Part shown: in pieces, positions 9,087 through 25,314 of the stretch
How positions within the stretch are numbered: position 1 is the first letter of the stretch
Layout of the letters: each line of letters starts with the position of its first letter
DNA from: Maritimibacter alkaliphilus
Lineage (GTDB): Bacteria > Pseudomonadota > Alphaproteobacteria > Rhodobacterales > Rhodobacteraceae
DNA: 64,000 nucleotides
Reading direction: 5' to 3'
NCBI RefSeq assembly: GCF_019801605.1
Contig: NZ_JAHVIT010000004.1
Location: 1-64,000, forward strand
Program-made: the position numbers and the translations under genes
The notes under the pieces: model-generated
The model's input: only the letters and a program-made list of their open reading frames with translations
Told to the model about the DNA's origin: nothing
Database searches by the model: none

Positions 9087-10427
9087 TCACATCGACATCG
9101 GCACGATGAGCGAGATCGCCGGGATCGTGATCAGCAGCACCAGTACCACCAGATCGCTGACCAGGAACCGCATGATCCCGGTGAAGATCGTTCCGATGTC
9201 CACCTTGCGCTCTTCCAGCACCCCGGCGAGGACGAAGACGTTCAGCCCGACCGGCGGCGTGATCAGCCCGATCTCCAGCAGCTTCACGATCACCACGCCG
9301 AACCAGATCAGGTTCATGTCGTAGCTTTCCACCATCGGGATCATCAGCGGCAGGGTCAGGACCATGATCCCCACGGGATCGAGGAACATGCCCAGCAGGA
9401 TGTAGATCAGGCAGACCATGACGAGGAAGGTCGTCGGGCTGACCGCATTCGCATCCAGCAGCCCCACGAGCGACCCGGACAGCCCGGTCAGCGCGATCAG
9501 CGCCACGAAGATCTTGGCGCAGGCCGCGATGAAGAAGATCGCCCCCGTGGTCACCATCGTTTCGCGCAGCAGCGGGATCACGTCCATCATGCGGATCTTG
9601 CCCCGCGCCATGCCGAGCAGTGTGGCGAAGAGCAGCGAAAGCGCCGCTGCCTCGGTCGCGGTGAAGATGCCGCCGTAGATGCCGCCGATCACCATGACGA
9701 AGAGCAGCACAGCGGGCCATGTGCCGATGGCGGCCTTCAGCTTCTCCTCGCGGGTGAAGGCCACGGCGGAGGCGGGCGCGATCTCGGGGCGGCGCTTGAC
9801 CCAGACCACCACGACGAGCGCGTAGCCGAGCAGCGAGAGAACCCCCGGCAGGAAGCCTGCAAGGAAGAGCTTGCTGATCGAGGTCTCGGTGAAGATGCCG
9901 TAGATGATGAAGAGCACCGAGGGCGGGATCAGCGATCCCAGCGTGCCCCCCGCCGCGACCGAGGCGGTGGCAAGGCGCGGGTCATAGTTCAGCCGCAGCA
10001 TCTCGGGCGTGCAGATGCGGCCCATGGTCGAGGCGCAGGCGATGGACGACCCCGAGATCGCCGAGAACCCGCCACAGCCGGCGATCGAGGCGATGGCGAC
10101 CCCGCCGGGCAGGCGGGCCAGCCAGACCCGGGCAGCCTCGTAGATCTCGGTCGTGATCCCCGCCTTGTAGGCGATATGGCCGAGCGCGATGAACAGCGGG
10201 ATCATCGACAGGTCATAGCTGTGCACGAGGTCGAAGCTGGACGAGAAGGCCAGCGAGAGGGTGGTCCAGAAGGCGCGCTCCGGCATGAAGGAGCCGGTCC
10301 GGAAGGCGAAGACCACGAAGATTGCACCCACCGCGACGCTGCCGATGGCAAAGGCGATGGGGACGCGGATTGCCAGCAGCAGGAGGACAAGCGCGCAGGC
10401 GACGTAGCCGACAGTAGCCAGATCCAT
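9087..10427 (-). CDS. dctM: TRAP transporter large permease (DctM family)
   Basis: 446 residues with about twelve hydrophobic segments. It has the DctM-type hallmarks: a GGFSAISGSSIACASTMG region near residues 116-133 and an internal repeat ending in GLITPPVGLNVFVLAGV. It drives uptake of an organic acid using the ion gradient, together with DctQ and the binding protein upstream. AAAGGA precedes the ATG. It is the last gene of the dctPQM unit and ends converging on the ABC operon. Confidence 0.94.
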   Translation of the reverse strand: MDLATVGYVACALVLLLLAIRVPIAFAIGSVAVGAIFVVFAFRTGSFMPERAFWTTLSLAFSSSFDLVHSYDLSMIPLFIALGHIAYKAGITTEIYEAARVWLARLPGGVAIASIAGCGGFSAISGSSIACASTMGRICTPEMLRLNYDPRLATASVAAGGTLGSLIPPSVLFIIYGIFTETSISKLFLAGFLPGVLSLLGYALVVVVWVKRRPEIAPASAVAFTREEKLKAAIGTWPAVLLFVMVIGGIYGGIFTATEAAALSLLFATLLGMARGKIRMMDVIPLLRETMVTTGAIFFIAACAKIFVALIALTGLSGSLVGLLDANAVSPTTFLVMVCLIYILLGMFLDPVGIMVLTLPLMIPMVESYDMNLIWFGVVIVKLLEIGLITPPVGLNVFVLAGVLEERKVDIGTIFTGIMRFLVSDLVVLVLLITIPAISLIVPMSM

Positions 10428-10442
10428 GTCAGTCCTTTCCGC

Positions 10443-10934
10443 TCACAGCTTTTCCGGGGCCGGACGGCCGGTGACGGCCGCCTTCAGATCGACCCACAGG
10501 ATGTGGAGCAGGCGAATTTCAAAGAAGAGGATGGCAAGCAGGAAGAGGGCCCGGCCCGGCCATTTCGGAAGGTGATAGGACCCGCCGAAATGCGCCCCCG
10601 AGGTGAAGGTCTTCCAGAACTCGAACCACCCGGCGATCAACAGCACGGTGGCGATGAGAAGCCCAAGAAGCGCCGCCAGCACGGCGATCCAGCGGTTCAG
10701 CCCGTCCGGGAACTGCGCGGCGATGAACTCGATCGCGATATGGGCGCGGGCGGCGGTTGCGGCGCTCAGCGGGAAGAGGATGGCGGGCACCATCAGTTCC
10801 TGCACGAAGACGATGATGTCGGGGATGCCCGAAGCAAAGACCTCGCGGGCGACGATGTTGGCGCTGATCAGGAGACAGAGCAGCAGGATGGCGATCGCGG
10901 CCATCGAATCGAGCAGGTACTCGATACGTTTCAT
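10443..10934 (-). CDS. dctQ: TRAP transporter small permease (DctQ family)
   Basis: 163 residues with four predicted membrane helices. The EYLLDSMAAIAILLLCLLISANIVAREVF start and the second helix pair with QELMVPAILFPLSAATAARAHIAIEFI are typical of DctQ. It pairs with DctM to form the membrane part of the transporter. It lies 15 bases upstream of dctM and 69 bases after dctP, with a hairpin in the latter gap. Confidence 0.92.
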   Translation of the reverse strand: MKRIEYLLDSMAAIAILLLCLLISANIVAREVFASGIPDIIVFVQELMVPAILFPLSAATAARAHIAIEFIAAQFPDGLNRWIAVLAALLGLLIATVLLIAGWFEFWKTFTSGAHFGGSYHLPKWPGRALFLLAILFFEIRLLHILWVDLKAAVTGRPAPEKL

Positions 10935-10964
10935 GACGATTTCCCTGGTGATGGAACGGCAGGC

Positions 10965-10991
10965 GGGGGCCGGGCCGTCAGCACGGCCCCC
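10965..10991 (-). other. Intercistronic hairpin between dctP and dctQ
   Basis: GGGGGCC at 10965-10971 pairs with GGCCCCC at 10985-10991, leaving a 13-base GC-rich loop that can pair further. There is no T run. Its position right after the binding-protein gene suggests mRNA 3'-end protection. Confidence 0.45.
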
Positions 10992-11003: not shown

Positions 11004-12059
11004 TCAGCGTTCCCAGGGCAGGCCCTCGGTCTCCATGACCGCGGTCCACTTGTCCATCAGGGCATAGAGTTCGGCCAGCAGGGCCTCGCCATCGCCGCCG
11101 TGGTTGGCCACGTCCTGCTCCCACTTCTCGATCAGCGGCCCGGCGGTGGCATGCAGCACCGGGTATTCCTCGGCCGGGAACTCGACGAATTCCACGGCGT
11201 TCTCACCCTCCGCGAGGGCGGCCATCGCCTTGTCGTCGGCCTCCTGCAGGTATTCACCGTAGTAGTCGGTCATGTCCGCGCCGGTGCTCAGGATCGCCTC
11301 CTGCTCTTCCGGCGACAGGCTGTCGAAGGTGAACTTGTTGATGAAGGTGGCAAGGCTGGTCACGGTGCTGAGCTTCAGGTCCACCATCGTGTCGACCTGT
11401 TCGTTCAGGTTGGTCGCGACGGCGAAATAGGCATAGGTCACCGAGCAATCGACGAGCCCGGTCTCCATCCCCTGGAAGACGTCGTAGATCGGCATCTTCA
11501 CCATGTTGCCGCCAAGGGCCGCGAAAATCTCGCCCGAGGCGCCGGTGTGGGCGACCTTGGTGCCCGCGATATCGGCCACGGTGCGGATGCCCTTGCCGCG
11601 ACAGGCGAGGATCCCCGGCGAGAGCGAGAAGGAATTCACGTAGACGAGGTTCATCTCCTCCATACGGCCCTTCACGTACTCGTTGGTGGTGAAGAGCTCG
11701 TACATCGCCTTCATCATCACCCAGGGGTGCGCCGGCTTGAGCAGCAGGCCGCCCATCTGAAGTTCGGGGAATTCCGATTCCGCATAGGCGCCGATGATCA
11801 CGCCCATGTCCGCCACACCGGCGGAGAGGCTGTCGAGCGCGGCATTGGCCTTGAAGAGCGCCCCGCCCCAGTTCTGGTCCACGGTGACGGAGCCGTTGGT
11901 GCGCTCCTTGATCTGTTCCGCGAGGAATTCGAGCGCATGGGCACGGGCGCCCCGGTTCGGTCCCGGCTCGTTGGCGATCAGCACCGTGTCAGCCTGCGCC
12001 TGCAGGGCCGAGACGGTCAGGATACCGGCCGCGGTGGCGGCTTTCAGCAAGTGTTTCAT
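11004..12059 (-). CDS. dctP: TRAP transporter solute-binding protein (DctP family)
   Basis: 351 residues with a Sec signal peptide cut near LQAQA-DT. The periplasmic part follows the DctP fold (QNWGGALFKANAALDSLSAGVADMG; PIYDVFQGMETGLVDC). At the position where most carboxylate-binding members have Lys-Ile-Arg, this protein reads GTKVAHTG, so the usual substrate-clamping Arg appears absent. It delivers an unidentified ligand to DctQM. AGGGAGG precedes the ATG. A MarR-type operator candidate lies 62 bases upstream, which links it to the beta-oxidation genes to its right. Confidence 0.92.
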   Translation of the reverse strand: MKHLLKAATAAGILTVSALQAQADTVLIANEPGPNRGARAHALEFLAEQIKERTNGSVTVDQNWGGALFKANAALDSLSAGVADMGVIIGAYAESEFPELQMGGLLLKPAHPWVMMKAMYELFTTNEYVKGRMEEMNLVYVNSFSLSPGILACRGKGIRTVADIAGTKVAHTGASGEIFAALGGNMVKMPIYDVFQGMETGLVDCSVTYAYFAVATNLNEQVDTMVDLKLSTVTSLATFINKFTFDSLSPEEQEAILSTGADMTDYYGEYLQEADDKAMAALAEGENAVEFVEFPAEEYPVLHATAGPLIEKWEQDVANHGGDGEALLAELYALMDKWTAVMETEGLPWER

Positions 12060-12120
12060 GTTGTCCTCCCTAAGCGGATGTCCCGGTCTCCCGCCGGTGC
12101 ATCCTCCAGAATTTTGGTAG

Positions 12121-12139
12121 CATGATAATAGTTATCAAG
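12121..12139. promoter_or_regulatory. Candidate MarR operator upstream of dctP
   Basis: The 19-bp near-palindrome CATGATAATAGTTATCAAG lies in the AT-rich promoter of dctPQM. Its reverse complement matches the elements at 15972-15990 and 25354-25372 (shared core CTTGAT-ACTAT with a CAAG or CATG end, then GCTA). It is therefore a probable site for the MarR protein encoded at 14473-14922. Confidence 0.6.
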
Positions 12140-12211
12140 CAATCTATTTAACCCATCCGCGGGGCCCGGATCCTCCTTCCGGACGCCGCGGAACGATCGC
12201 TCAGCTTTCGC

Positions 12212-13213
12212 TCAGGCACTTTGCCGCCAGGGCATCGCGCCACGGGCCAGTTGGCCTGCCAGACGGTCCTGCGCGGCGAGGAACTCCCGCTCCATCCGCG
12301 CCACGAGGTCGGCCACGGGCATCACGTCGCGCACCGCGCCGATCCCCTGGCCGGAGCCCCAGATTTCCTTCCAGCTCTTCGGCTTCTCGCGGTTCTCGCC
12401 GAAGTTCATCGCCGAGGGGTCCGACCGCTCCAGCGCGTCGGGGTCCATGCCCGCCGCCGCGATCGAGGGCTTCAGGTAATTGCCCCAGACCCCGGTGAAG
12501 AGGTTGGAGTAGACGATGTCCTCGGCCCCGGCTTCGGTGATCATCTGCTTGTAGCCCGGCACCGCGTTTGCCTCCTCGGTGGCGATGAAGGCCGATCCGG
12601 CATAGCCGCCGTCCGCCCCCATCGCGAGCGCCGCCAGCAGGCTGTCGCCGCGCGCGATGGCCCCCGACAGGAACAGCGGCCCGTCGAACCAGTCGCGGAT
12701 CTCCTGGATCAGGGCCAGCGGCGATTGCGCACCGGCATGGCCCCCGGCCCCGGCCGCCACGGCGATCAGACCGTCGGCGCCCTTCTCGATCGCCTTGCGG
12801 GCAAAGCGGTTGTTGATCACGTCATGGAGGACGACACCGCCGCAGGAATGGGCGGCCTCGTTCACCTCGACTCGCGCGCCGAGCGAGGTGATCCAGAGCG
12901 GCACCTCGTGGCGGGCGCAGATTTCGAGGTCCTGCTCCAGCCGCGTGTTCGAGCGGTGGACGATCTGGTTCACTGCGTAGGGCGCGGCGGGCGTGTCGGG
13001 ATGCGCCTGGTTGTGACGGTCCAGCTCTTCCTTGATCCGGGTCAGCCAGGCGTCGAGGCTCTGGCCGTCCTTCTCGCGCGCGTTGAGCGCGGGAAAGGAG
13101 CCGACGATCCCGGCCTTGCACTGCGCGATGACAAGCTCGGGCGTCGAGACGATGAAGAGCGGGCTGCCGATCAGCGGCAGGCGCAGGGTTTGCAGGATGG
13201 CAGGCAGGGTCAT
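12212..13213 (-). CDS. Nitronate monooxygenase/enoyl reductase-like FMN protein
   Basis: 333 residues, TIM-barrel flavoprotein of the 2-nitropropane dioxygenase family. The start LRLPLIGSPLFIVSTPELVIAQCKAGIVG and the FMN phosphate-binding AVAAGAGGHAG near residues 174-184 are characteristic, as is LSGAIARGDSLLAALAMGADGGYAGSAF. Related proteins oxidise nitroalkanes or reduce enoyl thioesters (FabK). In this cluster either an enoyl-CoA reductase or a detoxifying role is possible. Its ATG overlaps the stop of the racemase gene by 4 bases, so the two are translationally coupled. Confidence 0.87.
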   Translation of the reverse strand: MTLPAILQTLRLPLIGSPLFIVSTPELVIAQCKAGIVGSFPALNAREKDGQSLDAWLTRIKEELDRHNQAHPDTPAAPYAVNQIVHRSNTRLEQDLEICARHEVPLWITSLGARVEVNEAAHSCGGVVLHDVINNRFARKAIEKGADGLIAVAAGAGGHAGAQSPLALIQEIRDWFDGPLFLSGAIARGDSLLAALAMGADGGYAGSAFIATEEANAVPGYKQMITEAGAEDIVYSNLFTGVWGNYLKPSIAAAGMDPDALERSDPSAMNFGENREKPKSWKEIWGSGQGIGAVRDVMPVADLVARMEREFLAAQDRLAGQLARGAMPWRQSA

Positions 13214-14409
13214 GTCGGGTCCTCCTCGGGATGGGCCGGGGCGCAGGCAACCGCCCCCGACCGGATCAGTTCCGCCACCTCCTCCGTGGCGAAACCGGCA
13301 TCTTCCAGCACCGCGCGGCTGTCCTGCCCCGCACGGGGCGGCAGGCCGGGCAACGGTGTCGCGGCATGGGCAAAGCGCGGCGCGGGCATCGGCTGGTCGC
13401 CGCCCCCGGGGGCAAAGGCCCCGCGCGCAATGTTGTGGGGATAGGCCGCGGCCTCGGCCGGGCTGAGAACCGGGGCGAAACAGGCATCCGTCCCCTCCAG
13501 CAGCGCGCACCAGTGATCCCGGTCGGCCGAGAGGAAGACCTCGGTCAGCGTCTTGCGGATCGCGGGCCATGTGCTGCGGTCGGCGCGGTCCCCGATGGTC
13601 GCGGGGTCGAGGTTCAGCAACTCCAGCAGCTTGGCCCAGAACTGCGGCTCCAGCGCGCCGATGCTGATCCAGCGCCCGTCCGAACACTCATAGACGCCGT
13701 ACCACGGCACCCCGCCGTCGAGCGCATTCGCCTGCCGGGCGTCCTGCCAGCGGCCCATGGCGCGCATCGAATGGATCATGGCCATCAGCGCATGGGTGCC
13801 GTCGCAGATCGCCGCGTCGATCACGTCGCCCTGCCCTGTGCGGGCAGCCTTGAGGAAGCCCGCGACCATGCCGTAGGCGAGGAACATGCCGCCGCCGCCG
13901 AAATCCCCGAGCAGGTTCATCGGGAAGGCAGGCGCCCGGTCCGCCGGGCCAGAGGCCCAGAGGGCGCCTGTGATCGCGATGTAATTCAGGTCATGCCCCG
14001 CGGAATGGGACACCGGGCCCGCCTGTCCCCAGCCGGTCATCCGCCCGTAGACGAGACGCGGATTGCGGGCGAGCGCCACCTCAGGCCCCAGGCCAAGGCG
14101 CTCCATCACCCCGGGACGATAGCCTTCGATCAGCCCGTCCGCGCCCTCGATCAGCCGCAGGGCGATCTCCTTCGCCTCAGGCGCTTTCAGGTTCAGCGCC
14201 AGTGAACGCCGTCCGCGGGCGAGGTAATCGAGCGTCGGGTCGGCCGTGCCGACCGTGGGGCTGACCCCGCCGCCCGGGCGGTCGATGCGGATGACCTCGG
14301 CCCCCATGTCCGCCAGCATCATGCCTGCGAAGGGACCGGGCCCCAGCCCGGCGAATTCGAGTATGCGCAGCCCCTCGAGAGGGGGCGCGGCAGAGGGTGT
14401 CTGCGTCAC
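13210..14409 (-). CDS. Alpha-methylacyl-CoA racemase-like class III CoA-transferase family protein
   Basis: 399 residues of the CaiB/BaiF superfamily. The start (LEGLRILEFAGLGPGPFAGMMLADMGAEVIRIDRPGG), the His in SAGHDLNYIAITG and the Asp in GDVIDAAICDG match the catalytic His and Asp of alpha-methylacyl-CoA racemases (AMACR/MCR) rather than plain transferases. AMACR epimerises 2-methyl-branched acyl-CoAs so they can enter beta-oxidation. The start is GTG at 14409 with AAAGGA 8 bases upstream. It overlaps the flavoprotein gene and lies downstream of the MarR gene. Confidence 0.85.
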   Translation of the reverse strand: MTQTPSAAPPLEGLRILEFAGLGPGPFAGMMLADMGAEVIRIDRPGGGVSPTVGTADPTLDYLARGRRSLALNLKAPEAKEIALRLIEGADGLIEGYRPGVMERLGLGPEVALARNPRLVYGRMTGWGQAGPVSHSAGHDLNYIAITGALWASGPADRAPAFPMNLLGDFGGGGMFLAYGMVAGFLKAARTGQGDVIDAAICDGTHALMAMIHSMRAMGRWQDARQANALDGGVPWYGVYECSDGRWISIGALEPQFWAKLLELLNLDPATIGDRADRSTWPAIRKTLTEVFLSADRDHWCALLEGTDACFAPVLSPAEAAAYPHNIARGAFAPGGGDQPMPAPRFAHAATPLPGLPPRAGQDSRAVLEDAGFATEEVAELIRSGAVACAPAHPEEDPT

Positions 14410-14472: not shown

Positions 14473-14922
14473 TCATCGCTGTGCGAGCGCGTCCTTCAGG
14501 TTGCCCTTCATGCGCTGCAACACGCGCAGGGTGGTTTCCAGATCCTCCTCCGGAATCCCCGCGTTGGCGATTTCATCGACCTCGTAGATGATCTTGGTCA
14601 TCGCCCGGACCACATCCTTCGCCGCCTCGCTCGCATAGACCCGGTTGGACCGGCGGTCCTCCGGGTCGGGACGCCGCTCGACATAGCCGCGGGCCTCAAG
14701 CCGATCGATCAGCTTGGAGGTGGTCACCGTGGCAATATCCATGCGGTCGGCCAGTTCCGACTGCCGCAGACCGTTCTCGCGGACGAGGTGCACCAGCACC
14801 CAGCCCTGCGACATGGTCATGTCGTGCGGCTTCAGCATCGCGTCGAACAGGATCGCCCTGAACCGCGCAATGTCCTGATAGATCGGATTGTTATCTTCGC
14901 TGAGCGAAGACTTCTTGGCCAT
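14473..14922 (-). CDS. MarR-family transcriptional regulator
   Basis: 149 residues. The winged-helix core is clear: LRQSELADRMDIATVTTSKLIDRLEARGYVERRPDPEDRRSNRVYAS, about residues 60-106. The flanking helices form the dimer interface. The ATG at 14922 follows GAGG; an in-frame start at 15024 would add 34 residues of poor quality. The protein probably controls the surrounding acyl-CoA catabolic genes and the TRAP transporter through the 19-bp palindromes found in front of three units, with an acyl-CoA or the free acid as inducer. It follows the SDR gene on the same strand by 102 bases. Confidence 0.92.
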   Translation of the reverse strand: MAKKSSLSEDNNPIYQDIARFRAILFDAMLKPHDMTMSQGWVLVHLVRENGLRQSELADRMDIATVTTSKLIDRLEARGYVERRPDPEDRRSNRVYASEAAKDVVRAMTKIIYEVDEIANAGIPEEDLETTLRVLQRMKGNLKDALAQR

Positions 14923-15024: not shown

Positions 15025-15927
15025 TCAGACCGGGTCCCAGCTGAAGATGTCGCCCGAGCGGTCCAGCGGGTAGAAGTCCGCCTTCATCGCCGGCAGCGCA
15101 TGATCGCGCACCGTTTCCGGGCTCCAGCCTTCCGAGCGGTGGATCGACCGGATCGGGCGGGGCTGACTCATCAGGAAGATCTCGTTGTTGCGGATGCAGA
15201 AGATCTGGCCGCTGGTCTCGCAGGTGGGATCGGCAAGCGCCACGCAGAGCGGGGCGATCTTGGCGGGCGTCATCTCCTTGATGCGCTCGACCCGGGCCTT
15301 CTCGGCCTCGGTGTTCGCGGGGATCGTGCCGATCAGCCGCGACCAGGCAAAGGGCGCGATGCAGTTCGACCGCACGTTGAACCGCGCCATGTCGAGGGCG
15401 AGCGACTTCGACAGGCCGACGATGCCCATCTTGGCTGCCGAATAGTTTGCCTGCCCGAAGTTGCCGATCAGCCCGGAGGTGGAGGTGAAGTTCACGAAGC
15501 AGCCCGAGGCCTGCATCTTGAACTGCGCCGCGACCGCCTGCGCCATGTTGAACGAGCCCTTGAGATGCACGGCGATCACCGAATCCCAGGCCTCTTCCGT
15601 CATCTTGTGGAAGATCATGTCGCGCAGGATGCCCGCGTTGTTCACCACGATGTCGATGCCATCAAAGGTGTCCATGGCCTGTTCGTACATGGCCTTGGCG
15701 TCCTCGGGCTTGGCCACGTTGCCGAAGTTGGCGACGGCCTTGCCGCCCGCGGCGACGATCTCGTCCACGACCTGCTGTGCGGGGGTCTGATCGGCGCCCT
15801 CCCCGGCGCCGGACCCGCCAAGGTCGTTCACCACCACGGCGGCCCCGCGCGAGGCCATCATGAGTGCGATGTCGCGCCCGATGCCCCGGCCCGCGCCGGT
15901 CACGATTGCGGTTTTCCCTTCGAGCAT
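15025..15927 (-). CDS. Short-chain dehydrogenase, MFE-2-type 3-hydroxyacyl-CoA dehydrogenase
   Basis: 300 residues. It has the Rossmann TGAGRGIG near residue 10, VVNDLGG, NNAG and the catalytic Ser-Tyr-Lys set (FTSTSG, then YSAAK). The start EGKTAIVTGAGRGIGRDIALMMASRGAAVVVNDLGGSG and the extra C-terminal stretch of about 50 residues resemble the dehydrogenase part of peroxisomal multifunctional enzyme 2 (HSD17B4). It would oxidise a D-3-hydroxyacyl-CoA made by the MaoC hydratase. A strong AGGAGGAGGGG ribosome-binding site precedes the ATG. It is divergent from the acyl-CoA dehydrogenase gene, with an operator between them. Confidence 0.9.
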   Translation of the reverse strand: MLEGKTAIVTGAGRGIGRDIALMMASRGAAVVVNDLGGSGAGEGADQTPAQQVVDEIVAAGGKAVANFGNVAKPEDAKAMYEQAMDTFDGIDIVVNNAGILRDMIFHKMTEEAWDSVIAVHLKGSFNMAQAVAAQFKMQASGCFVNFTSTSGLIGNFGQANYSAAKMGIVGLSKSLALDMARFNVRSNCIAPFAWSRLIGTIPANTEAEKARVERIKEMTPAKIAPLCVALADPTCETSGQIFCIRNNEIFLMSQPRPIRSIHRSEGWSPETVRDHALPAMKADFYPLDRSGDIFSWDPV

Positions 15928-15971
15928 TGCTGCCCCTCCTCCTCTTCACTGTCCCGGACCAAGTTAATTAT

Positions 15972-15990
15972 CTTGATTACTATTTGCAAG
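15972..15990. promoter_or_regulatory. Candidate MarR operator between SDR and acyl-CoA dehydrogenase genes
   Basis: The sequence CTTGATTACTATTTGCAAG is an imperfect palindrome with CTTG and CAAG ends. Together with its flanks (TTA.. before, CTAATTATA after) it is nearly identical over about 36 bp to the region around 25354-25372. It lies 45 bases upstream of the minus-strand SDR start in the shared divergent promoter. Confidence 0.7.
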
Positions 15991-16075
15991 CTAATTATAA
16001 GCGGCCCCGAGGAGAGAGCCATGCCCGGCCCCCACCGGACCGCGGGGCATGCGCGCAAAAGGGAGGAGACCGCCG

Positions 16076-17227: not shown

Positions 17228-18804
17228 TCCGCTTTCCCGACTACATCCGGAAGCATGCCTTCCACCAGCCGGACAAGAAAGCCACCCACTTCGAGGGGCG
17301 TGACTTCACCTGGGCCGAGTTCTCGGCCCGGATTCACGGCATGGGGCAGGCGTTGACCGACCTCGGCGTCGCGCGCGGCGACCGGGTGGCGGTGCTGGGG
17401 AACAACTCCCACTGGATGGTGGAGATGTACTATGTCCCCTGCACCATCGGGGCGATCTGCGTGCCGATCAACTACCGCCTGTCGGAGCAGGAGATGGTCG
17501 AGGTCATCGCCGATTGCACCGCCGAGGTGCTGGTCGTCGACCGCCACCATGCCGACCGCGCCGCCGTTCTGATGGAGCGCTGCCCCTCCCTGCGCCAGCT
17601 GATCTATGCCGACTGGGATGCGCCTGCCGTGCCCCTGCCCGCCGGGACGCTCATCTACGAGGAGATCGTCGCCGGGATCGGCCCGGTGGCCGACACCGCC
17701 TTCGACGCCGTGGCGACCGGCGGCGAGGAGACGATGATCATCTTCTACACCTCCGGCACCACCGGCGTGCCCAAGGGCGTGATGCTGTCCCACAACAACC
17801 TGATGGTGAACGCCACCGGGTCGGGGCATCTCTATGGCTACCGGACCGACGACATCCTGCTGCTCTCGGGCCCGCTCTTCCACCTCGGCACTGGCAGCCG
17901 GGTCTATACCGCCGTCGCCTATGGCACGAGCATGGTGATCCAGTCCCGCTTCGAGGTCGAGGAGACGATGCACATGATCCAGAGCCAGCGGATCAGCACC
18001 ATGACGCTGGTGCCGACGATGCTGCGGATGATCATGGACCACCCGGACTTCACGAAGTTCGATTTCTCCTCGATCCGGGTGCTGACCTATGGCGCGGCGC
18101 CGATGCCGCTGGCGCTGATGGAGCGCGCGATCGAGGCGATCCCCGGCGTGACCTTCTGCCAAGGCTACGGCATGACGGAAACCTCGCCCGTGGTCTCCGT
18201 CCTCGTGCCTGCCGACCATGTGCCGGGCAACCCGATGATCGGCAAGCTGGCCTCGGTCGGCAAGCCGATCCTCTATGCCGATATCCGCATCGTGGACGAG
18301 AACGACGAGCCCGTCGGCCCCGGCGAGCCGGGCGAGATCATCGTGCGCGGCCCGCAGGTGATGAACGGCTACTGGAACCGCCCCGAGGAAACCGCGCAAG
18401 CGATGCGCGGCGGCTTCTACCATACCGGCGATGCGGGCTATCTGGACGAGGACGGCTATCTCTACATCGCCGGGCGCACCAAGGAGATGATCATCTCCGG
18501 CGGTGAAAATGTCTATCCGATCGAGACCGAGAACTGCCTGTCCAAGCACCCCGCCGTGGCGCAGGCCGCCGTGCTGGGGATGCCGCACGAGAAATGGGGC
18601 GAGGCGGTGCACGCGGTCGTGGCCCTGCATCCGGGCAAGTCCGCCTCGCCGGACGAGTTGATCGCCCACTGCCGGGAGTGGATCGCCCACTACAAGGCGC
18701 CGCGCGGCGTGACGATCTGGGACGGCCCGCTGCCGCTGTCGCCAACCAACAAGATCGACAAGGGCGCGCTGAAATCCGAACTGCTGAAAGGAGTGGTGGC
18801 ATGA
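17224..18804 (+). CDS. AMP-dependent acyl-CoA synthetase
   Basis: 526 residues, ANL superfamily ligase that activates a carboxylic acid with ATP and CoA. Motifs are the P-loop IIFYTSGTTGVPKGVMLSH near residue 176, YGMTETSP (A5), TGDAGYLDEDGYLYIAGRTKEMI (A7/A8 hinge) and PTNKIDKGAL with the catalytic Lys. It would load the acid imported by the TRAP system. The ATGA overlap with the preceding gene fixes the start. Confidence 0.93.
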   Translation: MIRFPDYIRKHAFHQPDKKATHFEGRDFTWAEFSARIHGMGQALTDLGVARGDRVAVLGNNSHWMVEMYYVPCTIGAICVPINYRLSEQEMVEVIADCTAEVLVVDRHHADRAAVLMERCPSLRQLIYADWDAPAVPLPAGTLIYEEIVAGIGPVADTAFDAVATGGEETMIIFYTSGTTGVPKGVMLSHNNLMVNATGSGHLYGYRTDDILLLSGPLFHLGTGSRVYTAVAYGTSMVIQSRFEVEETMHMIQSQRISTMTLVPTMLRMIMDHPDFTKFDFSSIRVLTYGAAPMPLALMERAIEAIPGVTFCQGYGMTETSPVVSVLVPADHVPGNPMIGKLASVGKPILYADIRIVDENDEPVGPGEPGEIIVRGPQVMNGYWNRPEETAQAMRGGFYHTGDAGYLDEDGYLYIAGRTKEMIISGGENVYPIETENCLSKHPAVAQAAVLGMPHEKWGEAVHAVVALHPGKSASPDELIAHCREWIAHYKAPRGVTIWDGPLPLSPTNKIDKGALKSELLKGVVA

Positions 18805-19598
18805 GCGAAGGTCTCAAGCTGACCCGCGAGGGCGGCATCGCCCTGATCGAGATGTGCGAACCGTCCTCGCGCAATGCGCTCTCCGACCGGATGCGCGCCG
18901 ACTTCATCCGGGTGATGGAGGAGCTGCACCACGACGAGGACCTGCGCGCCGTGGTCCTCACTGGCAGCGGGGGGGTCTTCTCCGCCGGGGGCGACCTGAA
19001 GGCGATGCTGGCGCGGCACCGCGCGGGCGAAACCTCGGGCGCCGAGGATGTGGTGGGCCGGATGAGCAAGCTGCACGGCTGGATGCGCCGCCTGCGCGAC
19101 CTGCCGGTGCCGGTGATCTGCGCCATCGACGGCCCCGCCTTCGGCGCGGGCTTCGGCATCGCCTGCGCGGGCGACATCCTGATCGCCTCGGACCGGGCCA
19201 GCTTCAACGCCTCCTTCTGCAAGGTGGGCGCGGTGCCGGACGGCAACCTCTTCTATGCCCTGCCCCGGATCGTCGGGCTGCAACGGGCGAAGGAGCTGTT
19301 CTACACCGGCCGCGTCGTGGACGCGGCGGAGGCCCTGCGCATCGGCCTCGTACTGGAGGTCGTCAGCACCGAGGCGCTGTTGCCCCGCGCGATGGAGATG
19401 GCCCGCATGATGTGCGACGCCTCGCCCGTGGCCTTCCGCCTGACCAAGCAGATCGCGGGCAAGGCGCTGGAGCTGGACGACGAGGCGCTCCTCGCGATGG
19501 AGGCGCAGGCACAGGCGATCTGCCTTGCCTCCGGGTACCACCGCGAGGCGCTGCAACGGTTCACCGAGAAGCAGCCGCCGAAGTTCGACTTCCGCTGA
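18801..19598 (+). CDS. Enoyl-CoA hydratase/isomerase family protein
   Basis: 265 residues, crotonase fold. The oxyanion-hole segments VLTGSGGVFSAGGDLKAML and CAIDGPAFGAGFGIACAGDILIAS are clear. The position of the second hydratase Glu lies in VGAVPDGNLFYALPR and reads Pro-Asp, and the first Glu also seems absent. An isomerase, hydrolase or lyase activity is therefore as plausible as hydration. The start overlaps the ligase stop by 4 bases behind AAAGGAG, completing a tightly coupled three-gene operon. Confidence 0.9.
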   Translation: MSEGLKLTREGGIALIEMCEPSSRNALSDRMRADFIRVMEELHHDEDLRAVVLTGSGGVFSAGGDLKAMLARHRAGETSGAEDVVGRMSKLHGWMRRLRDLPVPVICAIDGPAFGAGFGIACAGDILIASDRASFNASFCKVGAVPDGNLFYALPRIVGLQRAKELFYTGRVVDAAEALRIGLVLEVVSTEALLPRAMEMARMMCDASPVAFRLTKQIAGKALELDDEALLAMEAQAQAICLASGYHREALQRFTEKQPPKFDFR

Positions 19599-19667: not shown

Positions 19668-22109
19668 TCAGTCCAACGCGCCCACGGTCCGCAGCGCGTC
19701 GATCTTGCGGGGCGAATAGCCCAGCACCTCCGCCAGAACCGCCTCGGTATCGCGGCCCAGATGGGGCGCGGAGATCCGCGGCGCGCCGGGCGTCTGGCTC
19801 AGCCGGAACCGGCAGGCCTCGACCACCGAGAGGCTCTGATCCCCGCGCGGCAGTTCGACGAAATGGCCCCAGGCCTCCAGCTGCGGATCGACGGCGAGGT
19901 CCTCGGTATCCGCCACCACCGCGGCGGGCACGCCCAGCCGTTGCAGCAACGCCTCCACCGCCCCGGCTTCCTGCCCGGCGGTCCATGCGGCCAGCGCCGC
20001 GTCGATCTCCGCCTCTGCCGCCTGCCGGTCCGCCAGCCCCGGCCAGTTTTCCGCCGGCAGCCCCACGGCCCCGGCCAGCTGTTTCCAGCTGGCGTCATCG
20101 GGGGCCGAGATCGCGACCCAGGCGGTTTCGCCCTCCGCCGCGGTGCAGGGATAGACATTGTTCGGACAGGCCAGCGGATCGCGATTGGCATGGGCCACCG
20201 GCACCGCACCAGTCGCGCCATAGGTGGCAAAGCTCTCCGCGATGAACTGCATCCCGGCCTCCGCCTGCGAGACATCCAGCCACGCCCCCTGCCCCGTTCC
20301 GCGCCGCCGCTCCAGCGCGGCCAGCAGCACCGGCAAGGCAACGCGGGGGGCCACGAAATCCGTGTACGGCCCGTATGGCCCAACCGGCGGCGCGCCCTCG
20401 CGCCCCGCGAGGATTTGCAGCCCGGACATGGCCGCGCCGATATTGCCGAAGCCCGCCAGCCGGTGCCACGGCCCGCTCTGCCCCATGAGCGAGGTCGAGA
20501 GCATGATCAGCCCCGGGTTCCCCTCCGCGAGCGTCGCGTGGGAGAGCCCCCACCGCGCCATCTGGCCCGGGGCGAAACTCTCCACCAGCACGTCAGCCTG
20601 CGCGGCGAGGTCGCGCAGCACGGCGCGCCCCTCCTCGGTGCCGAGGTCAAGGGTCACGCCCAGCTTGCCCGCGTTGCAGTTCTCGTAGAGCCCGGACTTG
20701 TCGGGGTTCTTCTCGCCGCCCGGATAGGGGCCGGTGACGCGGGCGGTCTCCAGCTTCTTGCGGCTTTCCACCCGGATCACCCGGGCGCCGAAATCGCTGA
20801 GGCAACGGCCGATCATCGGCCCGGCCACGACCCACGACAGGTCCAGCACCGTCAGCCCGGCAAAGGGCGCACCGCTGTCCTTCACATCGGGCGCGAAGGG
20901 CACCGCACCCCGCCCGGCCAGCCACTCGGCCTCCGCTTCCGCCCCGCCTTCCCCCGGCGCGGGCGCGGCACGGGGCACAACGAAGCCACCCGGGAAGCCA
21001 CGCGCCAGATCGCCCGGCAGGCGCAGCCCGTCCACCGCATGGAAGAAGTCGCGCGCCGCCGCATGGGGGCTGGCATCCAGATCGGCGGTGTCCATGATCG
21101 GCGCCAGCATCAGCCGATGCTCCAGCGCCATCTCCACCGCCTCGGCCTTGGTCATGGGCGCAAGGAAGGCCGCCACCTCGGCCCGGGCCTGCTCCAGCTT
21201 CTCCTCGGGGATCTCGTCATTCTCGATCAGCGGTGGAAGCGTGACCCAGTCCCATGCCGCGAATTCCTCCGAACAGGCGCCACGGCGGTGCATCAGCGCG
21301 AAAAGCGCATTGGTGAACCGCCCCGCCGCCGGCCCGAGCGCAAGGTGCATTTCCACCAGCCCGTCGCGCACCGGCCACTTGGAGCGCTGCGTGCGCGAGC
21401 CGGAGCCGCTCAGGTCCAGCTCCCGCTTCTTCTTCGAGCGGATCTCGGGGCGGAAAACGTAATCCGGATGGCCGATCCGCGCCGCGAGGCTGAGGCTGAG
21501 CGTGGACTGCGTGATCGAGGCCTGCGCCGAGGTCACCACCCGCTGCCCCTGTCCGGTACGTCGCCGCGCCTCCAGCGCGACCATGACACCGCAGAGACCA
21601 TCCGCCGCCGCATGGTGCCAGCTCTGCGGCAGGGTGATCCGCGTCGGCACCCCGCCGGCCTGCGCCTCGGTCGGCTTCAGGGCACCGCCCGCAGCCCAGA
21701 GGGTCAGGTCGCTGGAGGCGTGATCGGCCTTGGGCCCGGTCAGCCCGTAGGGCGTGACGATCAGGTGCACGAGACCCGGGTTCGCCTCCTGAAGCGCGAC
21801 GGTATCAAGGAACCCCTCCGACGGCGTGCCCGCCTCGATCACCACGTCGGCCTGCGCGGCAAGCGCGGCCAGACGCCCGGCCTCGGCCCCACGGTCCAGC
21901 AGCAGCGACCGCCGCCCGGTGCCATAGGCACGCCAGTGCAACGATTGCCCCTCCGCGTCGAAGGGCGCCTGCCGCCGCGCCGCGCTGCCGCCGGGTTGTT
22001 CGATGGAGAGCACATCCGCCCCCATCAGCCCCAGCAGCCGCCCCGCCATGATGCCGCGATGATCGCTCAGATCGAGGACCCGCAGCCCCGCCAATGCCCC
22101 CTCAGCCAT
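19668..22109 (-). CDS. Tandem-fused class III CoA-transferase (two CaiB/BaiF domains)
   Basis: 813 residues, about twice the family length. Domain 1 (about 1-380) begins LAGLRVLDLSDHRGIMAGRLLGLMGADVLSIEQPGG. Domain 2 (about 415-800) begins FAGLTVLDLSWVVAGPMIGRCLSDFGARVIRVES. Family members move CoA between acyl groups through an Asp. Domain 2 keeps that Asp (AWLDVSQAEAG), but domain 1 reads QRVVTSAQAS, with Val at the Asp position. The fusion probably mimics the interlocked dimer with one active site. The ATG overlaps the upstream SDR gene by 8 bases. The substrate is unknown; a CoA-recycling or hydrolase role in this cluster is possible. Confidence 0.88.
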   Translation of the reverse strand: MAEGALAGLRVLDLSDHRGIMAGRLLGLMGADVLSIEQPGGSAARRQAPFDAEGQSLHWRAYGTGRRSLLLDRGAEAGRLAALAAQADVVIEAGTPSEGFLDTVALQEANPGLVHLIVTPYGLTGPKADHASSDLTLWAAGGALKPTEAQAGGVPTRITLPQSWHHAAADGLCGVMVALEARRRTGQGQRVVTSAQASITQSTLSLSLAARIGHPDYVFRPEIRSKKKRELDLSGSGSRTQRSKWPVRDGLVEMHLALGPAAGRFTNALFALMHRRGACSEEFAAWDWVTLPPLIENDEIPEEKLEQARAEVAAFLAPMTKAEAVEMALEHRLMLAPIMDTADLDASPHAAARDFFHAVDGLRLPGDLARGFPGGFVVPRAAPAPGEGGAEAEAEWLAGRGAVPFAPDVKDSGAPFAGLTVLDLSWVVAGPMIGRCLSDFGARVIRVESRKKLETARVTGPYPGGEKNPDKSGLYENCNAGKLGVTLDLGTEEGRAVLRDLAAQADVLVESFAPGQMARWGLSHATLAEGNPGLIMLSTSLMGQSGPWHRLAGFGNIGAAMSGLQILAGREGAPPVGPYGPYTDFVAPRVALPVLLAALERRRGTGQGAWLDVSQAEAGMQFIAESFATYGATGAVPVAHANRDPLACPNNVYPCTAAEGETAWVAISAPDDASWKQLAGAVGLPAENWPGLADRQAAEAEIDAALAAWTAGQEAGAVEALLQRLGVPAAVVADTEDLAVDPQLEAWGHFVELPRGDQSLSVVEACRFRLSQTPGAPRISAPHLGRDTEAVLAEVLGYSPRKIDALRTVGALD

Positions 22110-22890
22110 CGATGAAGGCCTCCATCCGCGTGGGCATCGGGTTCAACACCGCGCCGCCATCCACCGGGATCACCGCGCCGGTGATGTAGCTGGCCGCCTC
22201 GGAACAGAGGAAGCCGCAGAGCTGCGCCACGTCCTCGACCCGGCCCATGCGGCGCAGCGGGACAGAGGCGATCTTGGCCGCCAGCGAGGCTTCGTCCGGG
22301 GCGAGGCGCTTCATGCCCTCGGTGTCCCCGATCGGGCCCGGCAGCACGGAATTCACGCGGATGCCCTCGGGGCCCCATTCCAGCGCCAGCGTCCGGGTCA
22401 GCATGTCGACCCCTGCCTTGGCGGCACAGACATGGGCCTGCCCCACCATGGCGACCTGCGCCTGCGCGGCCGAGACGTTGACCACCACCGCCCCCGGCCT
22501 GCGCAGGTGCGGATAGGCCGCGTGCATCACGTGATGGGTGCCAAGCACGTCGATCTCCATGACCGCCCGGAACCCGTTCGAGGAGATGTCGCGCGCCCGC
22601 GCCACGAAGTTGCCCGCCGCGCCCGAGATCAGCACGTCAACGGGGCCGAAGACCTCTGCCGCGCGGCCGACCGCCCCGGCCACCGCCGCGGCGTCGCGCA
22701 CATCGGCCACCGCGCCCTCGGCCTCGGCGCCAAGCGCGCGAAGTTCCTCTACCGCTGCCTCCACCTTCTCGGCGCTGCGCGAGAAGGTGAAGACCTTCGC
22801 CCCCTCGCGCGCGAACATCCGCGCCACGCCGAGGTTGATGCCGCTGGTCCCGCCGGAGACGAGGACATGGCGCCCCGCGAAGCGGCTCAC
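22102..22890 (-). CDS. SDR family protein, 2,4-dienoyl-CoA reductase-like
   Basis: 262 residues. The Rossmann motif VSGGTSGINLGVARMFA lies near residue 10. The usual YxxxK is replaced by HVCAAK, with His at the Tyr position. That replacement and the LALEWGPEGIRVNSVLPGPIGDTEGMKRL stretch are typical of peroxisomal-type 2,4-dienoyl-CoA reductases (DECR2/SPS19). It would remove double bonds that block beta-oxidation. The start is GTG at 22890, sharing GTGA with the thiolase stop. Confidence 0.87.
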   Translation of the reverse strand: MSRFAGRHVLVSGGTSGINLGVARMFAREGAKVFTFSRSAEKVEAAVEELRALGAEAEGAVADVRDAAAVAGAVGRAAEVFGPVDVLISGAAGNFVARARDISSNGFRAVMEIDVLGTHHVMHAAYPHLRRPGAVVVNVSAAQAQVAMVGQAHVCAAKAGVDMLTRTLALEWGPEGIRVNSVLPGPIGDTEGMKRLAPDEASLAAKIASVPLRRMGRVEDVAQLCGFLCSEAASYITGAVIPVDGGAVLNPMPTRMEAFIDG

Positions 22891-24032
22891 CACTGGTCCT
22901 CCGAGGTCAGCACGACGGTGGCCGCGCCCGAGAACATGCCGCCCACGCCATGCACGACCGAGAGCTTCGCGCCCTCGACCTGCGCCGGGGAGAGGCCACG
23001 CATCTGCCGCACGCCTTCCTGCAACGCGTACATCCCGTACATGCCCGAATGCATGTAGCTGAGCCCGCCCCCGTTGGTGTTCAGGGGCAGCCTGCCCCCG
23101 GGCCGGGTGTTGCCCTCGGCGATGAAGGCCCCGCCCTCGCCCTTGGCGACGAAGCCGAGATCCTCCAGCCCGTAGACCGGCAGATGGGCGAAGGCATCGT
23201 AGATCATCAGGTGATCCACGTCCGAATGGCGGATGCCCGCGCTCTCGAACGCCGCCTTGCCAGAGACGCGGAACGCCTTGGAGGAGGTGAAATCCTCCAT
23301 CTGCGAGACCATCGGCCCCTCGCAGCTCTCGCCGCCCATGCCGCGCAGGTAGACCGGCTTGGTCGGGAAATCCTGTGCGCGCTCGGCCGAGGTAAGGATC
23401 AGCGCCCCGCCCCCGTCCGAGACGAGGCAGCACATCAGCTTGGTGAAGGGCCAGGCGATCATCTTGGCCGAGAGCACGTCGTCCACGGTGATCGGATCAT
23501 GGGCCGTGGCGCGCGGATGCCGGGAGGCCCATTCCCGCTGCACCACGGCCACCATGGCCAGCTGTTCCAGCGTGAGCCCGTCGTCTTTCATCTTGCGCAT
23601 CACGGGGAGAGTGAAGCGCGACGGGGGAAACAGCGGGCCATAGATGGCTTCGAATTCCTGCTGCTGCATCGAGGGGAACAGCGGCCGGTGCGCCCGGTTG
23701 TTCGAGCGCCCGCTTTCCCCGTGGGTGATCAGCACCGTCTTGCACAGCCCGGTGGCTATCGCCGCCGCCGCGTGGCGCACGTGCAGGATGAAGGAGCAGC
23801 CCCCGATCGAGGTGCTGTCCTGCCACGTCGGCGTGATGCCGAGGTACTGCGCGATCTCGGCGCTGTCGTGGCCGGCGGTGGCGATCCCGTCGATGTCGGC
23901 GGGCGTCAGGCCGCACTCGGCCATGGCGTTCAGCGCGGCATCGGCATGCAGGCCGGTCTGGCTCAGTTCGGGCACCTTGCCCATGCGGGTCGTCTCGGCG
24001 GCGCCGACGATGGCGATGGAAGCCTTGCTCAT
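22887..24032 (-). CDS. SCPx-type thiolase family protein
   Basis: 381 residues, thiolase fold of the SCPx/Ltp branch. The nucleophile position reads SIGGCSFILHVRHAAAAI, so a Cys sits at the start of the active-site helix (about residue 78). The C-terminal motifs are NTNGGGLSYMHSGMYG and VVHGVGGMFSG. Family relatives partner with a DUF35 protein and cleave 3-oxoacyl-CoA or act as retro-aldolases on branched or steroid side chains. Here the DUF35 gene lies immediately upstream (24029-24442) with a 4-base overlap, so a two-protein complex is likely. Confidence 0.88.
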   Translation of the reverse strand: MSKASIAIVGAAETTRMGKVPELSQTGLHADAALNAMAECGLTPADIDGIATAGHDSAEIAQYLGITPTWQDSTSIGGCSFILHVRHAAAAIATGLCKTVLITHGESGRSNNRAHRPLFPSMQQQEFEAIYGPLFPPSRFTLPVMRKMKDDGLTLEQLAMVAVVQREWASRHPRATAHDPITVDDVLSAKMIAWPFTKLMCCLVSDGGGALILTSAERAQDFPTKPVYLRGMGGESCEGPMVSQMEDFTSSKAFRVSGKAAFESAGIRHSDVDHLMIYDAFAHLPVYGLEDLGFVAKGEGGAFIAEGNTRPGGRLPLNTNGGGLSYMHSGMYGMYALQEGVRQMRGLSPAQVEGAKLSVVHGVGGMFSGAATVVLTSEDQW

Positions 24033-24442
24033 GCCGCACCTCCCTTCGCGGGCCGGAACTGCGGGATCATCAGGTCCCCCCGCGCCTCGAAGGTCACCTC
24101 AAGGGCCATGTCCAGCTCCAGCGCCTCCGGGTCGGCGGGGCAGTCGAGGATATTGCTCATCATCTTCACGCCTTCCTCCAGCATCACCACGGCCACCGTG
24201 AAGGGCGGCTCATACCCGGGGGCGGGCATGTGGCTGATCACGTAGGAATGCAGGGTTCCCTTGCCCGAGGCCTCCTGCACCGTGACATCGCGGCTGCCGC
24301 ATTTCGGGCAGAAGGGGCGCGGCGGGAAATACGCACCGCCGTCACAGGCGGTGCAGGCGTTGAGCAGGAGTTTCCCCGCCTTCGCGCCGTCCCAGTAGAA
24401 CTGCGTCTCAGAGTAGATCGTCGGTTGCATGCGGTCGCTCAT
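24029..24442 (-). CDS. DUF35/Zn-ribbon OB-fold acyl-CoA-binding partner protein
   Basis: 137 residues. The N-terminal rubredoxin-like Zn ribbon has CTACDGG...FCPKCGS, two CxxC pairs near residues 33-54. The OB-fold part follows with GTLHSYVISHMPAPGYEPPF. Proteins of this family stabilise and complete the active site of SCPx-like thiolases or aldolases. The start ATG at 24442 is preferred over the second Met four codons later. It is coupled to the thiolase gene by a 4-base overlap. Confidence 0.92.
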   Translation of the reverse strand: MSDRMQPTIYSETQFYWDGAKAGKLLLNACTACDGGAYFPPRPFCPKCGSRDVTVQEASGKGTLHSYVISHMPAPGYEPPFTVAVVMLEEGVKMMSNILDCPADPEALELDMALEVTFEARGDLMIPQFRPAKGGAA

Positions 24443-24453
24443 CTCGTCCTCCC

Positions 24454-25314
24454 TCAGCCCAGCCGGGCCAGACCGTTGTTCAGCACGATGACGTCGCGCT
24501 CCACCACCCGGGCGCGGAACGAGACCTCGTTCCCGCTGCGCCACATCTCGGTGCGGATCGTCTCGCCGGGATAGACCGGCGCGGAGAAGCGCAGCTGCAG
24601 ATGGGTCAGCGCCTCGGATCGACCCTCCGCCATGGCCTGCGTCACGGACCACGCGGCGATCCCAAGGGTGCAGAGGCCATGCAGGATCGGCTTCTCGAAG
24701 CCCACGCCCTGCGCCACCGCCGGATCCGCGTGCAGCGGGTTCCAGTCGCCGCTCAGGCGATAGATCAGCGCCGCGCCGGGCTGCGTCGGGTGATCGAACG
24801 TCGCGTCCGGATCCGTCTCGGGCAGCTTGTGCACCGGCTTCACCGGCCCGTCCGGCCCGCCGAACCCGCCATCGCCCCGCGCGAAACTGGTGGAGGCGAC
24901 GGTGGCGATCTTCGTGCCGCTGGCCTTGTCGGTCAGCACCCGCTCGGAATAGATCAGCGCGCCCTTGTGGGCGCCCTTGTCCACGATGCCGGTGACCTTC
25001 GTCTCGCCCACCAGCGTGCCCTCGGCGGGCAGCGGGGCGTGGAGCGTCAGGCTCTGCTCGCCGTGGAGGATCTTCTGCCATGTCAGGCCGGTGTCGGGCT
25101 CCATCGCCCAGAACCCGGGATAGGCCAGCACGTTGACCATGGCGGGCAGCGCGCCGAAGCCCTCCGCCCCCTCGTAGGTGGCGCGCAGGTGCGCCGGGTT
25201 CGACGGATCCGCGCCAAGCCCGAGGCCAAGCGCATAGAGGATCGTGTCGCGTTTCGAATAGCTGTGTTCCACCGGCGCAAACGGACGCGCCAGCAGGGCC
25301 TCATACTCAATCAT
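24454..25314 (-). CDS. MaoC-family enoyl-CoA hydratase (hydratase 2, double hot-dog)
   Basis: 286 residues, the length of the double hot-dog hydratases found in peroxisomal MFE-2. The start IEYEALLARPFAPVEHSYSKRDTILYALGLGLGADP is typical. The catalytic dyad motif appears as YRLSGDWNPLHADPAVAQGVGFEKPILHGLCTLG, with Asp and His. It hydrates 2-enoyl-CoA to the D-3-hydroxyacyl-CoA used by an MFE-2-type dehydrogenase. The ATG at 25314 follows GGAGGAG. It is first in the operon that runs to the tandem CoA-transferase, behind the palindrome at 25354-25372. Confidence 0.92.
   Translation of the reverse strand: MIEYEALLARPFAPVEHSYSKRDTILYALGLGLGADPSNPAHLRATYEGAEGFGALPAMVNVLAYPGFWAMEPDTGLTWQKILHGEQSLTLHAPLPAEGTLVGETKVTGIVDKGAHKGALIYSERVLTDKASGTKIATVASTSFARGDGGFGGPDGPVKPVHKLPETDPDATFDHPTQPGAALIYRLSGDWNPLHADPAVAQGVGFEKPILHGLCTLGIAAWSVTQAMAEGRSEALTHLQLRFSAPVYPGETIRTEMWRSGNEVSFRARVVERDVIVLNNGLARLG

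Follow-up and report, generated by a model that had tools for sequence, protein, structure and literature searches.

Which compound is taken up and degraded by a cluster of 15 genes that joins a tripartite ATP-independent periplasmic (TRAP) importer to enzymes resembling those of peroxisomal beta-oxidation? The cluster lies at positions 9087-25314 of the window, the 64,000-nucleotide stretch of Maritimibacter alkaliphilus DNA (contig NZ_JAHVIT010000004.1) analyzed here, in a genome of 4.9 Mb. We propose, at a probability of about 0.56, that it is a MarR-controlled, island-like roseobacter regulon that imports an alpha-methyl-branched, unsaturated, fairly hydrophobic (isoprenoid-like) acid and degrades it by peroxisome-like beta-oxidation of the (3R) type. 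The gene content and order, an operator found only in the cluster, the enzyme families, and the loss of the importer's filter arginine are all read from the DNA and predicted proteins. We favor an alpha-methyl-branched, unsaturated acid because the cluster combines a predicted alpha-methylacyl-CoA racemase (AMACR), a predicted 2,4-dienoyl-CoA reductase (DECR), further peroxisome-type enzymes, and possibly a hydrophobic binding site in the importer; an isoprenoid-like acid is our best guess within that class.

Gene families were assigned from Pfam and NCBIfam profiles. From gene overlaps, gene directions, and operator positions, we infer four transcription units, one encoding a MaoC hydratase, a DUF35 protein, a thiolase-fold protein, a short-chain dehydrogenase/reductase (SDR2), and a CoA-transferase (minus strand), one an acyl-CoA dehydrogenase, an acyl-CoA ligase, and a crotonase-fold enzyme (plus strand), one a second short-chain dehydrogenase/reductase (SDR1), a MarR regulator, the racemase, and an NMO-family protein (minus strand), and one the importer subunits DctP, DctQ, and DctM (minus strand). 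A previous description of this DNA, made without database searches (the sequence-only reading), had listed most of these genes, and Pfam recovers every one that it named within 9087-25314, including TRAP DctM/Q/P, the acyl-CoA dehydrogenase, the AMP-dependent CoA ligase, and the DUF35 partner; its cluster limits also hold, with the conserved ATG of MaoC at 25314 and the end of DctM at 9087. It did not contain the fused double class-III CoA-transferase, the NMO/FabK-family protein, the crotonase-family protein, or the MarR regulator. Among the NCBIfam matches listed, none is above its cut-off for the racemase, the NMO-family protein, SDR1, the acyl-CoA dehydrogenase, the crotonase-fold enzyme, the fused CoA-transferase, or the thiolase.

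Common control of these units, also claimed in the sequence-only reading by the word regulon, is supported by a shared palindrome that precedes all of them and by the MarR gene (14473..14922, minus strand; PF12802/PF01047) inside the cluster, which is present in all ten complete clusters found at other loci. Aligned intergenic DNA of the divergent promoter between SDR1 and the acyl-CoA dehydrogenase contains the main operator (15969..15994, minus strand), a dyad of the form TAATTAGCTTG-N11-CAAG(A/C)TAATTA; several relatives have TAATTAGCTTG-N11-CAAGCTAATTA, from which the window is one base off. Pattern and matrix searches place a second copy upstream of the MaoC operon (25351..25376, minus strand) and a third, weaker one upstream of dctP (12118..12142, plus strand). 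A pattern built from the first two kinds of site and allowing up to three mismatches gives two matches in the genome, both in the cluster, and zero control matches, and a pattern built from all three window sites matches exactly those three in the 4.9 Mb; we found no further operator sites in the host genome at the thresholds used. A weight matrix was built from 23 sites of the first two kinds, each time omitting the tested locus but keeping near-identical relatives in the training set; it ranks the same three places first in 11/11 complete clusters (the window and ten other loci). Of the two incomplete loci, L017 has a low-scoring MaoC site (17.5), and in L018 the MaoC site is the only one seen. 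MarR is the likely owner of this operator, and its binding there is a prediction. In 12 other cluster-bearing genomes, most matches of the first pattern outside the cluster are chance matches, because they mostly have three mismatches and a backward control pattern gives 12 matches in all. Two of them may nonetheless be real: an operator-like site away from the cluster (L101, at about 9920, three mismatches; L102, at about 9984, two mismatches) precedes a gene for a 218-residue flavin-reductase-domain protein that is 88% identical between these two cluster-bearing genomes. One of the two has a second, 67% identical copy of this gene, and the window's genome contains no match to it at 1e-40.

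Relatives of the cluster were collected through the fused CoA-transferase, which gave 22 loci in named genomes; 12 of these carry the block. The same gene order and strand recur in ten other loci (L009-L016, L019, L021), in nine of which the fetched stretch ends within DctM; the cluster in L016 is complete except that it lacks the NMO gene. In L017 the cluster is interrupted by a contig end, and its remaining half is on another contig of that genome (L103). At the other ten loci (L020, L022-L030) the transferase has other partners, is in some cases in two separate pieces, or is only a fragment. Among the fetched relatives of the fused CoA-transferase, the closest (96% identity) is from Pseudooceanicola nanhaiensis DP2Y115-3, and a family sample of 198 genomes (nearly one per genus) gives two matches at 1e-180, one of which is the window's own genome. 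In the window, a gene for an HxlR-family regulator adjoins the cluster; at E <= 1e-10 the 12 cluster loci show no match to it, although the upstream DNA available for L012 is too short for a judgment. Left flanks were compared for L009, L010, and L011, and none of the three matches the window. The block thus appears patchy and located at differing places, as would be expected of a mobile island. Its genes form more than a chance grouping, because the same gene order is found in ten other loci and the shared operator occurs only in the cluster. A plasmid home was considered and rejected, as a plasmid collection gave no match at 1e-100.

The closest solved structures of the central enzymes point to branched and unsaturated acyl chains. 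The racemase (13210..14409, minus strand; PF02515) scores 386 bits to MCR (PDB 1x74) against 145 bits to the best CoA-transferase structure. Its His139 (in GHDLNY) and Asp169 (in GDF), which we take to be the equivalents of the MCR catalytic pair His126/Asp156, are kept in the window and in all 10 aligned cluster relatives, and the five further family members of the same genome that were aligned have Tyr or Phe in the catalytic His column; a racemase of the AMACR/MCR type, epimerizing 2-methylacyl-CoA, is the predicted function. The MaoC protein (24454..25314, minus strand; PF22622 and PF01575) is a double hot-dog with an MFE-2 N-domain, and its best PDB match is 1s9c, a peroxisomal MFE-2, consistent with hydratase 2. 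SDR1 (15025..15927, minus strand) best matches the MFE-2 (3R)-hydroxyacyl-CoA dehydrogenases 2et6, 1gz6, and 1zbq, with a Ser-Tyr-Lys site identical in 10 aligned loci. SDR2 (22102..22893, minus strand) is closest to the peroxisomal 2,4-dienoyl-CoA reductase 4fc6 (188 bits), and HVCAAK replaces its YxxxK motif in the window and all 11 aligned relatives; replacement of the catalytic Tyr of YxxxK is characteristic of DECR enzymes, and SDR2 is predicted to be a DECR2-type 2,4-dienoyl-CoA reductase. All four assignments had been proposed in the sequence-only reading and are borne out here. Its general idea of alpha-methyl-branched, unsaturated acyl chains likewise gains from the AMACR, MFE-2, and DECR2 assignments, with further support from the arginine-free DctP described below. 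The crotonase-fold enzyme (18801..19598, plus strand; PF00378) has the Asp of a VPD motif in common with 6sl9 and 4jcs; we take 6sl9 to be a PaaG and presume the residue roles, and on this layout the enzyme is probably a delta3,delta2-enoyl-CoA isomerase. A hydratase role was considered and is disfavored on the same PaaG-like layout and presumed roles.

Substrate activation could draw on two proteins, an AMP-forming acyl-CoA ligase (17224..18804, plus strand; PF00501, 288 bits; PRK06187, 505 bits and above cut-off) and an 813-residue fused double class-III CoA-transferase (19668..22109, minus strand; PF02515 twice). The C half of the latter is closest to a benzylsuccinate CoA-transferase subunit (PDB 9fn0_B), and the catalytic Asp column is occupied only in that half (Asp584), with none in the N half; enzymes of the BbsEF type presumably consist of two class-III subunits with one catalytic Asp, a layout that the fused chain shares. 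The acyl-CoA dehydrogenase (16076..17227, plus strand; PF02771/02770/00441) is taken to start at a conserved ATG. The NMO/FabK-family protein (12212..13213, minus strand; PF03060, 70 bits), probably an FMN enzyme, overlaps the racemase stop; it matches FabK-type structures and scores 66 bits to the FabK model, for which the cut-off is 453. It may perhaps catalyze a C=C redox step, and the part of PMC5380842 cited here gives a precedent for acyl-CoA work in IpdC, a FabK-like flavoprotein of steroid degradation. Genes for a split CoA-transferase, an NMO protein, an SDR, a thiolase, and a crotonase are clustered again in a Thermoflexaceae metagenome-assembled genome (L027) and in Actinomadura (L028), the latter additionally with a peptide-type ABC transporter.

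How the chain is cleaved is a separate question. The thiolase-fold protein (22887..24032, minus strand; PF22691; PRK06158-like) scores 386 bits to 4u4e, an uncharacterized thiolase, 159 to the aldolase Ltp2, and 116 to BbsB, and the best fold matches of its predicted model are 4u4e, Ltp2, and Sal. In an excerpt of PMC12329534, the diagnostic motifs are HDCF in SCP-2 thiolases, YDCY in Sal, and YDHF in Ltp2. All 13 cluster proteins (the window and 12 relatives) have YDAF, which is neither HDCF nor YDHF/YDCY and in which the Tyr is kept and His/Cys have become Ala. The plain name SCPx-type thiolase, given in the sequence-only reading, is therefore not supported, HDCF being absent and the nearest solved relatives after the uncharacterized thiolase being steroid-side-chain aldolases. 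The protein might instead be a retro-aldolase that cleaves the 3-hydroxy-3-alkyl acyl-CoA of a beta-branched acid rather than a 3-oxoacyl-CoA, and its invariant Tyr278 corresponds to the catalytic base of Ltp2 and Sal in the YDxF motif; together with the missing HDCF and the aldolases as closest characterized solved relatives, this makes retro-aldol cleavage a serious rival. Nonetheless, we lean toward thiolysis and regard the aldolase as a possible but clearly less probable solution: Cys stands at the presumed nucleophile column (Cys79) in 13/13 cluster proteins and in 3/3 near relatives of other genomes, His328, at the presumed catalytic His column, is invariant in 18 aligned proteins (both columns matched to SCPx by hand), and an aldolase would not need the adjoining SDR of the 3-hydroxyacyl-CoA dehydrogenase type. 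At about 40-45% identity the Cys is found in 0/8 relatives (seven Ser, one Gly), and a very divergent ninth match (L026) has Ser at this column and a YENF motif; only matches of 280 residues or more were considered. The DUF35 partner (24029..24442, minus strand; PF12172 and PF01796; zinc ribbon and OB fold) has a Cys4 zinc site, compared with Cys3His in Shy (PMC12329534, excerpt). Three other genomes (L042-L044) have an SDR1-thiolase-DUF35 triad without close copies of the remaining genes (SDR1 64% and thiolase 66-67% identity), an association that fits dehydrogenation followed by cleavage. These are 7- to 8-Mb genomes of the same class, with amidase genes nearby in L042 and L043 and an ABC transporter in L043.

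The importer departs from its relatives at one residue. DctP (11004..12059, minus strand) has the PF03480 fold and TRAP fold matches, with DctQ (10443..10934, minus strand; PF04290, 55 bits) and DctM (9087..10427, minus strand; PF06808, 288 bits) alongside. Ala170 of DctP aligns with Arg in the five solved TRAP structures printed in the alignment, at a column that we take, from those structures and general knowledge, to be that of SiaP Arg-147. This column is Ala in 11/12 cluster DctPs (the window, L009-L015, L019, L021, and L103) and Arg in 12/12 relatives outside the cluster (L052-L062 and the weak match L042); the DctP of L051 is the same protein as that of L019 and was not counted. In the cited part of PMC4646407, the Arg is present in 5943/6142 TRAP binding proteins (96.8%), and Tp0957 of Treponema has Ala at this position and a hydrophobic pocket; a passage of PMC5812351 describes TatPT homologues, believed to import aliphatic substrates, as mostly having Ala. 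The cluster DctP is thus predicted to be one of a rare, Arg-less kind of TRAP binding protein, the Arg being usual but not universal. A predicted model (mean pLDDT, the predicted local distance difference test score, 74) identifies fold neighbors but no ligand. The closest TRAP relatives outside the cluster have 36-41% DctP identity and about 60-70% DctM identity. Among these, a system (L064) is flanked by genes that resemble pimC, pimD, FadJ/B, and a thiolase; a general thiolase model is the only one of their NCBIfam matches to exceed its cut-off. Because the neighbors of this Arg-bearing relative resemble pimelate-type genes, the switch from Arg to Ala may mark a change of substrate. Arg-bearing sister TRAP systems are found at L063-L068.

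These parts can be arranged as a candidate route. The TRAP system would import the acid, gripping it mainly through hydrophobic contacts, and the AMP ligase, the fused CoA-transferase, or both would form the CoA thioester. AMACR would then flip the 2-methyl center into the form accepted by the dehydrogenase, and the acyl-CoA dehydrogenase would form the 2-enoyl-CoA. A delta-4 double bond would give a 2,4-dienoyl-CoA, which the DECR-like SDR and the PaaG-like isomerase would restore to the 2-enoyl-CoA. The MFE-2-type hydratase and dehydrogenase would form the 3-oxoacyl-CoA, and the thiolase-DUF35 pair would cleave it to propionyl-CoA or acetyl-CoA. MarR would probably derepress all units on binding the substrate or a product. 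A precedent is found in rubber degraders: in an excerpt of PMC8538451, strains with a disrupted mcr are reported to be unable to use polyisoprene or related methyl-branched isoprenoids, and a 2,4-dienoyl-CoA reductase is placed in the same route.

Several observations weigh against our proposal of a branched, unsaturated, isoprenoid-like acid. Every enzyme family in the cluster is broad, and TRAP systems mostly transport small polar acids. L018, a cut locus, leaves no space between its thiolase and transferase genes for the DECR-like SDR2, and L016, whose cluster is complete apart from NMO, retains the DctP Arg. The active site of the thiolase is mixed in motif and poorly modeled, with pLDDT <50 at residues 321-330, around His328. 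Loss of the Arg can also signal a noncarboxylate ligand; according to the part of PMC4646407 cited above, ethanolamine is the ligand of one Arg-less TRAP protein, and Phe, not Ala, most often takes the place of the Arg. The nearest DctP folds by Foldseek are 4n6d, 4nap, and TRAP proteins titled as specific for aromatic acids, the sister TRAP system of L064 (about 40% DctP identity) adjoins pimelate-like dicarboxylate genes, and a steroid-24-oyl-CoA synthetase model finds its highest-scoring protein of this genome in the cluster's own ligase (297 bits; cut-off, 750).

The last three of these points correspond to different substrates. If the importer was derived from a pimelate-type system, the cluster could degrade a medium-chain dicarboxylic acid, perhaps methyl-branched, as the L064 neighborhood among its closest noncluster relatives would suggest; the benzylsuccinate CoA-transferase as closest structure of the fused protein fits this too, since class-III CoA-transferases of its kind often act on succinate-like acids. 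We consider a dicarboxylate unlikely, however, because the filter Arg kept in those TRAP relatives is lost in 11/12 cluster loci and because the enzymes are of the MFE-2, DECR2, and AMACR types, not the FadB or Pim type. The same transferase match is shared by a second alternative, an aromatic-acid pathway for benzylsuccinate or an arylpropionate that is arranged as in bbs and in which AMACR would act on a 2-arylpropionyl-CoA; 2-arylpropionyl also forms part of a deposited MCR name. The functions (CoA-transferase, dehydrogenase, hydratase, SDR, and DUF35-thiolase) would follow the bbs layout, and aromatic-acid TRAP proteins are among the top DctP fold matches. To our knowledge, however, an MFE-2 hydratase and a DECR2-type SDR have no place in bbs, Pfam recognizes neither a dioxygenase nor a ring-reduction gene in the 15-gene cluster, and the thiolase is further from BbsB than from 4u4e or Ltp2 in bit score, even though BbsAB is itself a thiolase-DUF35 pair (PMC12329534, excerpt); this pathway we regard as quite improbable.

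Under a third alternative, the cluster would degrade the side chain of a steroid or bile acid, using an aldolase like Ltp2/Sal and a flavoenzyme like IpdC. This would account for Ltp2 and Sal as the nearest solved folds after 4u4e, for the FabK-like protein, and for the ligase match, and AMACR is also used for sterol side chains. Against it, the ligase score falls well short of the 750-bit cut-off, the zinc site of DUF35 differs from the Cys3His site of Shy, KshA_C has no match in the cluster's own genome (99.72% complete), and the best scores there for the HsaC and HsaD families are 57 bits (cut-off, 366) and 51 bits (cut-off, 462). None of four steroid or ring-cleavage models is over its cut-off in the host or in 14 control genomes, a set without a steroid degrader as positive control. 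With that limit, the steroid-side-chain-like substrate that the sequence-only reading had allowed is not supported, and we rate it as very improbable. The isoprenoid-like acid is preferred to all of these. A bolder form of this proposal, in which a dicarboxylate-type TRAP importer was retooled by Arg loss for a hydrophobic isoprenoid-like acid and moves between marine roseobacters with a near-complete, peroxisomal-type branched-chain beta-oxidation regulon, is tentative, and we would not yet expect it to hold in full. We know of no marine terpenoid carbon that is taken up by TRAP systems, and in open-licence PMC papers, which do not cover the wider print, we found no direct report of such a cluster or of isoprenoid-carrying TRAP systems.

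Two neighbors of the cluster complete the local picture. Dipeptide-type ABC transporter genes (window positions 3585-8907) adjoin its dctM end on the opposite strand, and the HxlR-family regulator gene lies at 25377-26045.

TRAP importers are understood as carboxylate scavengers on account of one arginine, and a natural set of DctPs with and without it, tied to a single catabolic regulon, allows the cargo of Arg-less TRAP proteins to be tested directly. Should the substrate prove to be an isoprenoid acid, the cluster would serve as a genomic marker of a little-studied marine carbon pool and would supply stereoselective enzymes acting on branched acids; if the importer has indeed been retooled, a class of marine terpenoid carbon would be opened to TRAP uptake.

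Among known systems, the cluster most resembles peroxisomal branched-chain beta-oxidation (AMACR, MFE-2, DECR2, and SCPx), with three of its enzymes best matching peroxisomal structures and the racemase best matching MCR. It differs in that the two parts of MFE-2 are encoded separately, in different operons, cleavage falls to a PRK06158-like protein with a DUF35 partner rather than to SCPx, and a TRAP importer and a CoA-transferase are added. In rubber-degrading actinobacteria, AMACR (mcr), a 2,4-dienoyl-CoA reductase, and a beta-oxidation set are likewise assigned to unsaturated methyl-branched acids, although in one of the two strains the reductase is described as being of the Old Yellow Enzyme type and uptake as Mce-mediated, and there are several candidate genes for most steps (PMC8538451, excerpt), whereas here there is one compact regulon with a TRAP importer. 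With the Ltp2-ChsH2 and Sal-Shy aldolases the cleavage enzyme has in common the thiolase fold, the DUF35 partner, and the YDxF Tyr, but it has Cys at the nucleophile column, YDAF instead of YDHF/YDCY, and a Cys4 zinc site where Sal's partner has Cys3His, and the steroid genes searched for in the host genome with the four models were not found. The Bbs pathway shares the thiolase-DUF35 pair and the transferase whose nearest structure is a benzylsuccinate CoA-transferase subunit, although in the cluster the transferase is fused in one chain and AMACR, MFE-2, and DECR2 types are added. Finally, like Tp0957 and TatPT (PMC4646407 and PMC5812351, excerpts), the cluster DctP has Ala at the Arg-147 equivalent, but it differs from them in that no TPR (TatT-like) protein is among the Pfam matches of the 15 genes and in having close relatives that bear the Arg.

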